DNA of 64,000 bases from positions 1 to 64,000 of the forward strand of contig CACWNW010000019.1 of NCBI GenBank assembly GCA_902762305.1, written 5' to 3'. Positions 18,841-22,582 of this stretch are shown one piece after another. Below the pieces are notes generated by a model, which was given only the letters and a program-made list of their open reading frames with translations, made no database searches and was not told the origin of the DNA. The DNA comes from Fibrobacter succinogenes. Its GTDB lineage: Bacteria; Fibrobacterota; Fibrobacteria; Fibrobacterales; Fibrobacteraceae. Position numbers and translations under genes: made by a program. How positions within the stretch are numbered: the first letter of the stretch is position 1; each line of letters starts with the position of its first letter.

Positions 18841-18898
18841 TGTCATCTTGAGCGGACCCTGAAGCGCAAAGCGCGACAGGGGAAGTCGAAGAATCTAC
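18841..18898. repeat. dispersed repeat between gltX and the BON-domain gene
   Basis: On the plus strand it begins TGTCATCTTGAGCGGACC and ends GAAGTCGAAGAATCTAC, matching the widespread bacterial pattern of type TCATCCTGAGCG...GTCGAAGGATCT. Its right end contains the gltX stop codon (18895-18897); its left end begins 5 bp from the BON gene's TTG. Confidence 0.75.
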
Positions 18899-20364
18899 TT
18901 CATCAACGGCATCGCCACGTCGATGCGACGGAGCACTTCTTCCTTGCCAATGATTTCGAACATTTCCCAGAGGCCGGGGCCTGCGGTAACGCCGGAAACA
19001 GCGAGACGCGGAGCACCGACGAGTTCACCGACCTTGTGGCCGCAACGTTCGGCGAGGTCGTAGAACCCCTTCTCAATCACCGGAGTCTTGAAATCTTCGA
19101 TGGAAGCGAGCATGTCGCGCACGAGTGTCGCGACTTCCTTGGAACCTTCGCCGAAGTGCTTCTTGGCACCCTTTTCGTCGTAGGTGGTCGGGGCGACAAA
19201 GAAGTACACCGCCATGTCGGCCAAGTCCTGCACAAAGTGGGCACGCGGCTTCAATTGCTTCACGATTTCATCGAGGCGAGCTTCCGGTTCGTTGGAGAGG
19301 TCTATGCCCTTCGCGGCAAGGCCTTCCTTCATGATTCCCTTGAGGAACGCGTCATCGCACAGGTGAATGTGCTGGCCGTTCATCCACTGGAGTTTCTTTT
19401 CGTCGAAACTTGCGGACTTCGGGTTGATGCGTTCGAGCGTGAAGCAGTCCACCATTTCCTTGATGGTCATGACTTCGCGGTCGTCACCCGGATTCCAGCC
19501 GAGGAGTGCAAGGTAGTTCACGAGCGTTTCGGGCAGGTAGCCCAAGTCACGGAAGTCGCCCACGGAGGCGGCACCCTTGCGCTTGCTGAGCTTGCCACCG
19601 TTCTTGTCGAGAATCACCGGCAGGTGGCACCAAATAGGCGGCTGCCAGCCGAAGGCCTTGTACAGAAGTTCATGCTTGGGCGTAGAGCTAATCCATTCGT
19701 CACCGCGGAGCACATGGGACGTACCCATCAGGTGGTCGTCCACGACGCTTGCAAAATGGTAAGTCGGGTAGCCGTCGCGCTTGATAAGCACGAGGTCATC
19801 CAGGAGTTCGTTTTGGTAACAGATGTGGCCGCGGATCATGTCGTCGAACTCGGTCACGCCCGTCTCGGGCACCTTGAAGCGGATGACAGCCTTCTCGCCG
19901 GCGGCAATGCGGGCTTCAGCTTCTTCGCGACTGATATTACGGCAGTGGCGGTCGTAACCCGTGACCGGCACATGAGACTTTTCCTGTTCGGCACGGACTT
20001 CCTGCAGGCGTTCTTCGGTGCAGAAGCAGTAGTAGGCGTCGCCCGAGTCGAGCAGTTTCTTCACTTCGCGGTGGTAGATGTCCAGGCGTTCGCTCTGGAA
20101 GTACGGACCGCAATCGCCTTCGCAACCCGGACCTTCGTCCCACTGGAGTCCCAGCCACTTGAGGTCGCGCATCAGGTCATGGAGCGCCGTCTCGTTGTAA
20201 CGCTTGCGGTCGGTATCCTCGATACGCAGGTAGAACGTACCGCCCATGTGCTTGGCAAAAAAATAGTTGTAAATGGCGGTACGAGCACCGCCCACATGCA
20301 GGTAGCCAGTTGGGCTCGGGGCAAAACGCACACGAACAGGACGAGTAGCAGAATTTTCGCTCAT
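18895..20364 (-). CDS. gltX: glutamyl-tRNA synthetase
   Basis: Charges tRNA-Glu (and perhaps tRNA-Gln). Class I features are the HIGH-type motif in FAPSPTGYLHVGGART (residues 14-28), the zinc-binding-like CFCTEERL, and KLSKR at 258-262 in LDKNGGKLSKRKGAA. 489 residues, full length. Ribosome site AAGGGAAT precedes the ATG. The stop codon lies within a dispersed repeat. Confidence 0.96.
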   Translation of the reverse strand: MSENSATRPVRVRFAPSPTGYLHVGGARTAIYNYFFAKHMGGTFYLRIEDTDRKRYNETALHDLMRDLKWLGLQWDEGPGCEGDCGPYFQSERLDIYHREVKKLLDSGDAYYCFCTEERLQEVRAEQEKSHVPVTGYDRHCRNISREEAEARIAAGEKAVIRFKVPETGVTEFDDMIRGHICYQNELLDDLVLIKRDGYPTYHFASVVDDHLMGTSHVLRGDEWISSTPKHELLYKAFGWQPPIWCHLPVILDKNGGKLSKRKGAASVGDFRDLGYLPETLVNYLALLGWNPGDDREVMTIKEMVDCFTLERINPKSASFDEKKLQWMNGQHIHLCDDAFLKGIMKEGLAAKGIDLSNEPEARLDEIVKQLKPRAHFVQDLADMAVYFFVAPTTYDEKGAKKHFGEGSKEVATLVRDMLASIEDFKTPVIEKGFYDLAERCGHKVGELVGAPRLAVSGVTAGPGLWEMFEIIGKEEVLRRIDVAMPLMK

Positions 20365-20424
20365 GATATGATTCCCTTGTTATAATTTTCAGTCAAATTC
20401 CGTCATAAATATAGAAAAATGAAT

Positions 20425-20451
20425 AAACCCCGGTGTTCAACCGAGGTTTTT
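20425..20451. terminator. imperfect hairpin with T run
   Basis: AAACCCCGGT / ACCGAGGTTT pair with one C-A mismatch around loop GTTCA; TT follows on the plus strand and TTTATTCATTTTT on the minus. It may be a second barrier between the small minus-strand gene and gltX. Confidence 0.45.
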
Positions 20452-20472
20452 CCATTTAAAGAGAGAGAATTC

Positions 20473-20508
20473 AAAAAAAGCCAATGACGCAGATTATGCG
20501 TGCTTGGC
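20473..20508 (-). terminator. terminator overlapping the candidate peptide gene
   Basis: On the minus strand GCCAA and CGCA pair with TGCG and TTGGC around the loop TAATC that contains the stop codon; seven T residues follow. This is a strong intrinsic terminator shape. Confidence 0.7.
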
Positions 20509-20556
20509 GTATTTCCTGAAGCTCTTGACCAGAAGGGCGGCGAGAATGCAGTACAT
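20494..20556 (-). CDS. candidate 20-residue hydrophobic/basic peptide
   Basis: The frame encodes MYCILAALLVKSFRKYAKHA and stops. The first ten residues form a short hydrophobic helix; the rest is strongly basic, as in small membrane peptides and some type I toxins. AAAGGAC lies 6 bp before the ATG. The stop codon sits in the loop of a terminator, and AT-rich promoter-like sequence lies about 90 bp upstream. The combination of ribosome site, frame and terminator argues for a real transcript; the family is unknown. It could instead be an RNA gene with a chance frame. Confidence 0.5.
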   Translation of the reverse strand: MYCILAALLVKSFRKYAKHA

Positions 20557-20736
20557 GTTTGTCCTTTTATCCTTGATTTTTACCTTTTTATCACCATTTT
20601 CAAAACGGCGAGCCAATATTAACAATTTTTTACTAACGCTGCAAGGGTGAAAATTATATATATTTAAGATTTATGCCTTTTTTTCTTGGGCCAACAGCGA
20701 AAGATTCACGTCCAGGCGGTTGTTAACTTGGTCTTG

Positions 20737-20764: not shown

Positions 20765-22582
20765 ATGAAACGAATTCTTCTCATCTGTCTTGCCTTGACC
20801 TTCGGTGCCTTCGCACGTCCGTCCCTGCAACTGGACAAGGACAGAATCGAAGCCGGCAAGACCTTCGGACTCCAACTTGTATATCCACTTAATGAACTCC
20901 CCGAAAACAGGGACAATCTGACCATCGAGACACAGAACGGATTCACCTTCTTGGGCCTCGACAGTACCGACCAGGTCATACGCCCCGATATCGAAGACAT
21001 GTTCAATTCCTTCTTCGGGGGCGGCCGTAACCGCGGCGGCTACAAGGCACGTATATATACCTTCAAGCTGAGGGCACCCAAGAAGACGGGACGCATAGGC
21101 ATCGGCCAGTTATTCATCGATATCGACGGGCAAAAGCGCACCATCGCAAACGACATCCCCATCAACATCCAGCGCGCCTTTAGCGACGACGCCCTCGCCG
21201 CCTCGCTCACGGCCAGCAAGAAAACCGTCTACGAGGGCGAGCAGTTCTACGTGACGCTCGGGCTCCACACCTTCGAACACTTCGAGGGTGGCCTGCAGGC
21301 CACCGACATGAACACGGGCAACGACTTCATCGTCCACAGGAGCGACCTTTCGAACCTGAAATTCGAACCCGTAGAAGGCGCTCGGCGCGAAATGCAGGCG
21401 AGCGCCAAGTTCGCATGGCTCAGCCCCACCAAGAGCGGCAACCTGCAGATTCCGCCGTTCAAGTTCAAGTACACCAAGCGCGGCGAGCCGAAGATTGTCG
21501 AAGAGAACAAGCAGATGGGCGGCATGTCGTTCCACTCGCAGAGCATCCGCCAGGAATCCATCGAGGCCGAAGCGCAGTCCCCCGCCATCAACATCATGGT
21601 GAAGCCCCTGCCCGAAGAAGGCAAGCCCGCCAACTTCAGCGGCATGGTCGGCAGCTACAGCTTCGACGCCGATTTCGACCGCACGAACCTGAAGGTCGGC
21701 GAAGCGCTCACGCTCTCCGTCGAAATCAAGGGCGACGGGACGCCGGGCACACTGACCGACCCGAAGTTCCCCGACTTCAGCGACTTCCGCTCCGTACCGC
21801 CCGAAAACAACATCTCGAAAAAAATCGTAGGCAACAAGGTCATCACCTCCAAGAGCATCAAGGTGTTCCTCTATCCCAAAAAGAAGGGCGAATTCACCAT
21901 CCCCGAAATTTCGTACTCGTGGTTCAATCCGGCCAAGAAGAAATACGAAACTGCGAAGGCGGGCCCGTGGACCATCGTCGTCGAAAAAGGCGAAGCCGCA
22001 CCCGAAGCCATATTCCAGTCCCCCGCCGCTGTAGCCGGGCCTCCATCCGTACAGAAGAAAGAAATCGAATCGCTCGGTTCCGACATCCGCTTCATCCACC
22101 AGGTTTCGGGAACCGGCAATACGACACCCTATAAGAGCATCTGGTACTGGGTTGCGCTGCTCGGCGCCCTCCCCTTCTACTTCATCGTCACGTGGGCCAT
22201 ACGCAAGCGCCGCAAGCACAACAGCGATTCTGCGCTGGTCCGCAAGGGCAAAGCGAACAAGATGCTCAGGGAACGCTTTGCAAGCGCACGCGAGGCCCTG
22301 CACAAGGGCGACGCGAAGGCGCTCTACGCAGCACTCGAAAACGGCCTCATCGGCTATCTCAGCGACTGCACCAACCTGGAATTCAAGGGCATGACCCGCC
22401 CGCAAATGAAGGAAGAACTTGCGAAACTCGGCGTCAAGGAGGAAACGATAGCCTCCATCGACAGCTGGCTCGAGAAATGCGCATTCGCACGATTCGCTCC
22501 CGTAGACCCCTCCGCCGACGAACAGAAGAAGATGCTCGCCGACGTGGAAAAGCTCTGCGGCGAACTCGGAAAACTGAAATAG
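20765..22582 (+). CDS. batD: BatD-like protein
   Basis: A signal peptide (MKRILLICLALTFGAFA) precedes a long periplasmic beta-sandwich region with the family pattern (KTVYEGEQFYVTLGL near 155; KVGEALTLSVEIKGDGTPG near 312), then one membrane helix (about 459-480: YWVALLGALPFYFIVTWAI) and a cytoplasmic helical tail. BatD is one of the Bat proteins linked to aerotolerance or envelope stress, acting with MoxR ATPases and von Willebrand-domain BatA/BatB. Here only batD and batE occur; the genes upstream are unrelated. 605 residues. Confidence 0.85.
   Translation: MKRILLICLALTFGAFARPSLQLDKDRIEAGKTFGLQLVYPLNELPENRDNLTIETQNGFTFLGLDSTDQVIRPDIEDMFNSFFGGGRNRGGYKARIYTFKLRAPKKTGRIGIGQLFIDIDGQKRTIANDIPINIQRAFSDDALAASLTASKKTVYEGEQFYVTLGLHTFEHFEGGLQATDMNTGNDFIVHRSDLSNLKFEPVEGARREMQASAKFAWLSPTKSGNLQIPPFKFKYTKRGEPKIVEENKQMGGMSFHSQSIRQESIEAEAQSPAINIMVKPLPEEGKPANFSGMVGSYSFDADFDRTNLKVGEALTLSVEIKGDGTPGTLTDPKFPDFSDFRSVPPENNISKKIVGNKVITSKSIKVFLYPKKKGEFTIPEISYSWFNPAKKKYETAKAGPWTIVVEKGEAAPEAIFQSPAAVAGPPSVQKKEIESLGSDIRFIHQVSGTGNTTPYKSIWYWVALLGALPFYFIVTWAIRKRRKHNSDSALVRKGKANKMLRERFASAREALHKGDAKALYAALENGLIGYLSDCTNLEFKGMTRPQMKEELAKLGVKEETIASIDSWLEKCAFARFAPVDPSADEQKKMLADVEKLCGELGKLK

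Follow-up and report, generated by a model that had tools for sequence, protein, structure and literature searches.

The window (the whole 64,000-nucleotide stretch of Fibrobacter succinogenes DNA analysed here) contains a 63-bp open reading frame of 20 codons on the minus strand, with batD diverging from it upstream and gltX lying downstream. Minus-strand positions 20556-20494 read ATGTACTGCATTCTCGCCGCCCTTCTGGTCAAGAGCTTCAGGAAATACGCCAAGCACGCATAA and encode the peptide MYCILAALLVKSFRKYAKHA, with ATG at 20556-20554 and TAA at 20496-20494. This frame, together with its promoter, ribosome site and terminator, makes up what we refer to as the unit, which occurs as a single copy in the window's own genome. 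The features of the locus, in the direction of transcription of the unit, are as follows.

20765..22582 (+): batD, divergent upstream neighbour (Pfam BatD, 6.7e-25)
20639..20644 (-): -35 element TTGCAG, conserved in relatives
20616..20621 (-): -10 element TAATAT, with a 17-bp spacer from the -35 element
20562..20566 (-): Shine-Dalgarno sequence AAGGA (AAGGA or AAGGAG in 65/67 distinct units)
20494..20556 (-): coding sequence of the microprotein (frame kept genus-wide, pN/pS 0.145)
20473..20508 (-): first terminator-like hairpin with a T7 tail, overlapping the stop codon (similar hairpin in just 12/67 distinct units)
20461..20468 (-): TCTCTCTC element in the 3' untranslated region (CT-repeat element in 37/67 distinct units)
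20419..20455 (-): second intrinsic terminator, conserved in position (computed -16.8 kcal/mol; downstream terminator in 64/67 distinct units)
18895..20364 (-): gltX, downstream neighbour in the window's lineage (Pfam tRNA-synt_1c, 2.9e-106)

The promoter is of the type TTGNNN-17-TAATAT, which is conserved upstream of the ORF in relatives. An A/T-rich block lies just upstream of the -35 element, for which relatives mostly have TTGACG or TTGAAA. The -10 element is TAATAT in 40/82 units and TATCAT in 24/82, and a G/C-rich stretch lies 3' of it (TTGGCTCGCC in the window, TTGGCGCC in many relatives). Judging from the position of the promoter, transcription would start near 20609, giving an inferred leader of ∼53 bases in the window, 20–102 bases across the set, and 20–26 bases in the clade with tandem copies. 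The original prediction had suggested that the leader could be 80–90 bases, long enough for regulation, and this part of it is not supported. The ribosome site it had proposed, AAAGGAC, is indeed present at 20567-20561, 4 bases 5' of the ATG, with AAGGA or AAGGAG kept in nearly all units.

Selection on the reading frame and distribution of the unit

Among 57 distinct 20-codon sequences, mean pS was 0.47 and mean pN was 0.07 (ratio 0.145). The two shifted sense frames gave pN/pS values of about 1.7. That one antisense frame gave 0.25 is no surprise, its third positions being for the most part the same variable bases. The pairs behind these ratios are not independent, and hence no P value is attached to them; the contrast between frames is nevertheless large. 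Coding sequences are 57, 63, 66 or 69 nt long (63 nt in 62/67 units) and thus differ by whole codons. Promoter-to-ATG distances represent all three phases, and in 34/67 units the leader contains an in-frame stop, which is evidence that translation begins at the ATG. Codons 1–7 (20536-20556 in the window, minus strand) are nearly constant even at silent sites, the later codons being freer, and codon 5 is CTC in 56/57 distinct sequences.

Two features expected of a conserved microprotein gene are found at this locus: an excess of synonymous change with the frame kept, and a promoter and Shine-Dalgarno sequence belonging to the ORF itself. A translated peptide of 20 residues had been predicted, with a frame conserved through synonymous changes in Fibrobacter genomes named as the check, and the comparison, in which that check is passed, strongly supports the prediction. 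By these data, the 20-codon ORF is almost certainly a genuine translated gene, and strong purifying selection acts on its protein in nearly all Fibrobacter genomes.

We searched for the unit in several ways. A degenerate pattern for the start of the gene was found in 70/80 genomes of the genus, including 37/40 near-complete ones, and in 0/88 other Fibrobacterota genomes; 15 genomes carry two copies, in tandem. A longer start pattern, run against the genomes of 84,980 bacterial and archaeal species, hit 47 stretches, every one in a Fibrobacter or Fibrobacterales record, in a listing from which records close to the window's own genome may be missing. When DNA was compared directly with 60 relatives and the own genome, 34/61 matched, all but one short match lying within the window's genus. 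The better of these matches take in the promoter and reach the 3' region, and the ORF is retained in the matches (consensus MYCILAALLVKSFKKYAKRA). Finally, a search with the -10-region motif gave a place in 73 of 80 genus genomes, with a control pattern almost empty, although some one-mismatch matches lie off the usual locus and resemble ordinary promoters. Of the loci fetched, 82/82 distinct places with a related promoter motif lead to a Met-Tyr-Cys peptide. These include two diverged clades, which retain the plan of MYC, a hydrophobic stretch and a basic end (MYCLLAYLIVKQLKSGKALI and MYCLIAALVIMNQKKRFRKSRA). Every unit examined has Tyr2 and Cys3; some units came from search patterns requiring both residues, but the promoter-motif search did not require them.

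Pfam, NCBIfam and PADLOC gave no match for the peptide, which is weak evidence of absence, as profile libraries are weak at 20 residues. There was likewise no match for it in the PDB or among 50,697 phage records, no known RNA family at the locus in Rfam, and nothing on this gene in the literature searched.

Neighbouring genes and transcript ends

Across relatives, batD is divergent upstream of 79/82 units. The downstream gene depends on the clade: it is gltX in the window's lineage, but in most relatives another gene takes that position, either malQ (4-alpha-glucanotransferase) or a convergent radical SAM gene. The convergent gene we take, by its sequence, to be MqnC-like. A variable downstream gene combined with a constant batD upstream points to a free-standing gene rather than a leader peptide.

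The unit is absent from one subclade with near-complete genomes, which indicates that the gene is dispensable. In G115, G035 and G128, and at one batD copy of G125, batD directly faces an apparent radical SAM gene with no unit between them. In the batD tree, which is unrooted, these loci group with G011 in a single supported subclade, and we infer that loss in that subclade is likelier than gain everywhere else. We also considered whether the peptide might be an obligate partner of BatD, which is unlikely, as genomes that lack the unit still have batD.

Two other arrangements around batD were seen. G125 has two batD copies (L112, L121), both without the peptide unit, and the ORF facing one of them resembles, by eye, a type II/IV pseudopilin. 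On a contig from a viral collection (L170:2900-14300), a phage-like element encoding a tyrosine integrase (Pfam, 8.9e-19) separates batD from two peptide units in tandem. It is flanked by TTTACCAATTT (2925) and TTTACCAAATTT (13951), which suggests a putative attachment site just upstream of batD.

The 3' end of the unit is more variable. In the window, the first hairpin, GCCAAgcACGCA-TAATC-TGCGTcaTTGGC, lies at 20508-20480 with the stop TAA in its loop (computed -12.3 kcal/mol), and its T7 tail occupies 20479-20473. The stop in a terminator loop had been described correctly for this DNA. It is not conserved, however: the 12/67 units with such a hairpin belong mostly to a wider group around the window's lineage, and we rejected the arrangement as a general feature. 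The second terminator (20455-20419) is the stronger of the two, and its position, not that of the first, is kept in relatives, ∼20–50 bases 3' of the stop; the sequences of the downstream terminators differ between clades. With the overlapping hairpin in 12/67 units and a terminator after the stop in 64/67, the conserved design is, on this comparison, promoter, ribosome site, 20 codons and terminator.

These observations bear on the idea that the peptide is a leader or attenuator of the next gene, in which translation of the stop codon would melt the terminator. The window alone might suggest this, its ORF ending in a terminator loop with gltX downstream on the same strand. The change of downstream gene between clades and the second terminator between the unit and gltX led us to reject a leader peptide of gltX. 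The overlapping hairpin is confined to a minority of units, moreover, and none of the codons of the peptide specifies glutamate. We therefore regard a leader peptide as extremely improbable.

Ahead of the downstream terminator is the CT-repeat element TCTCTCTC, which is absent from several clades and from second tandem copies; the 3' region is otherwise not conserved. We asked whether the element is a general 3' module before terminators and found no support for the idea, as 0/30 other sites in the own genome had a terminator after them. One further case was nevertheless seen in the same genome, where a sigma-factor-like gene (L180; G000:C37:12423-12467) has a 3' end much like this one, with TTTTTCTCTCTCC and then a terminator of the CCGG type.

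The element raises the question of a dual-function RNA, in which a regulatory small RNA would act via TCTCTCTC and the peptide would be a second product. Transcript size, the terminator at the 3' end and the presence of the CT repeat in over half of the units fit such an RNA, and the near-invariance of codons 2–7 at silent sites, CTC at codon 5 included, may reflect constraint at the RNA level. The patchy retention of the element, the lack of conservation around it and the empty Rfam search speak against it, and selection on the protein alone explains most of the conservation. On balance, a dual-function RNA seems quite unlikely. In a more elaborate scheme, these 20-residue peptides would be a new family of membrane microproteins restricted to the genus and marked by an invariant N-terminal Met-Tyr-Cys, and in some lineages the stop would sit inside a terminator, translation choosing between two transcript ends (one short, one longer and carrying the CT-repeat element). 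Taken jointly, these propositions are a long shot.

A putative membrane-associated microprotein

Residues 2–10 of the peptide are hydrophobic (∼9 consecutive residues) and are followed by a tail of charge +4/+5; net charge across units is +3 to +6. Residues 8–20 are amphipathic in the main clade (hydrophobic moment 0.65, permutation P = 0.03), but this property is weak or lacking in the two diverged clades. A hydrophobic stretch of nine residues is too short for a single bilayer-spanning helix, and the more natural arrangement would be a helix at the membrane interface or one inserted next to a partner protein. According to the positive-inside rule, a basic tail is expected to stay in the cytoplasm.

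The best explanation, to which we give a probability of roughly 0.6, is a free-standing and so far unannotated gene, restricted to Fibrobacter, for a cationic, membrane-associated modulator microprotein. Membrane association is the better founded part and is predicted with good confidence, whereas for a modulatory, non-toxic role we see about even odds. The comparison of sequences directly supports a gene of sigma-70-type promoter, Shine-Dalgarno sequence, 20-codon frame and terminator that is inherited beside batD, with a tandem duplication in one clade and absence from another. The peptide would be made at a substantial level and would form a short amphipathic helix attached to the inner membrane or embedded in it, with its basic tail in the cytoplasm; there, in an accessory capacity, it may modulate a function of the membrane or of a membrane protein.

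A hydrophobic helix with a basic tail had been likened to both small membrane peptides and type I toxins. The first likeness is plausible from the composition of the peptide; the second is not upheld. As a type I toxin, the small hydrophobic peptide would depolarise the inner membrane once an RNA antitoxin was removed. Type I toxins commonly have <60 residues and a basic C-terminus, and IbsC, with 19 residues, can be cut to 15 with 10 hydrophobic (PMC8309996). The small size, hydrophobicity and often basic C-terminus common to these toxins mean that our peptide, with its hydrophobic N-terminal half, could act similarly, and tandem copies in some genomes and absence from some relatives are in line with this. 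Our search for an antitoxin covered antisense sigma-70-like promoters and complementary loci in the own genome. Antisense sigma-70-like sites were found in 1/67 units versus 220/1,340 shuffled sequences (about 16%), fewer than in the shuffles. Beyond short chance-level matches, no other place in the own genome is similar or complementary to the transcript. Twelve folded transcripts (leaders of 20–60 bases; 20–26 in one clade) share no common fold over the Shine-Dalgarno sequence. PADLOC, Pfam and NCBIfam hold no match to the putative toxin, the hydrophobic stretch at residues 2–10 is short for a helix that would span the membrane, and both the site beside batD and the slowly evolving protein sequence are stable across the genus. 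We consider a type I toxin unlikely and do not claim membership of this class for the peptide.

In its small hydrophobic character, its own promoter, its occurrence in more than one copy in some genomes and, as in many of these toxins, its basic C-terminus, the peptide is like IbsC, TisB, AapA1 and Fst (PMC8309996, and general background). It differs from them in that no antisense RNA promoter, conserved sequestration of the ribosome site or sequence match was found, and in having only ∼9 consecutive hydrophobic residues, a fixed site and strong purifying selection.

The positive net charge and the amphipathic C-terminal half in the main clade would also fit a cationic peptide that is exported, for instance as a leaderless bacteriocin or a signal. 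The genes beside the unit include no recurrent one for export or immunity, however, and the strong constancy of the sequence is unlike that of bacteriocins; an exported peptide appears very unlikely.

The gene has several points of interest. Fibrobacter is a major rumen cellulose degrader, and a 20-codon gene present in nearly every sampled species was missed by every family library searched. The unit is compact and testable (promoter, 63-bp ORF, terminator), and the two-copy clade, the clade without the gene and the diverged versions offer natural controls. Its shortness also makes it a useful case for the minimum size of a conserved, probably membrane-associated protein.

Small, non-toxic bacterial membrane proteins include KdpF, CydX, AcrZ and MgtS, and SpoVM is a small protein that senses curvature. 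These are short, single-helix proteins that annotation often misses, conserved within clades and often modulators of membrane complexes, and in these respects the Fibrobacter peptide would resemble them. Unlike them, it has just 20 residues and is thus shorter, has no partner gene in an operon and shows no sequence relation in the libraries searched. Genus-specific families of small ORFs are common in metagenomic catalogues such as GMSC (PMC11364881). For the unit described here, a promoter, ribosome site, terminator and neighbourhood, as well as selection on the frame, have been established in addition, and by this comparison it is an unusually well-supported addition to such families.
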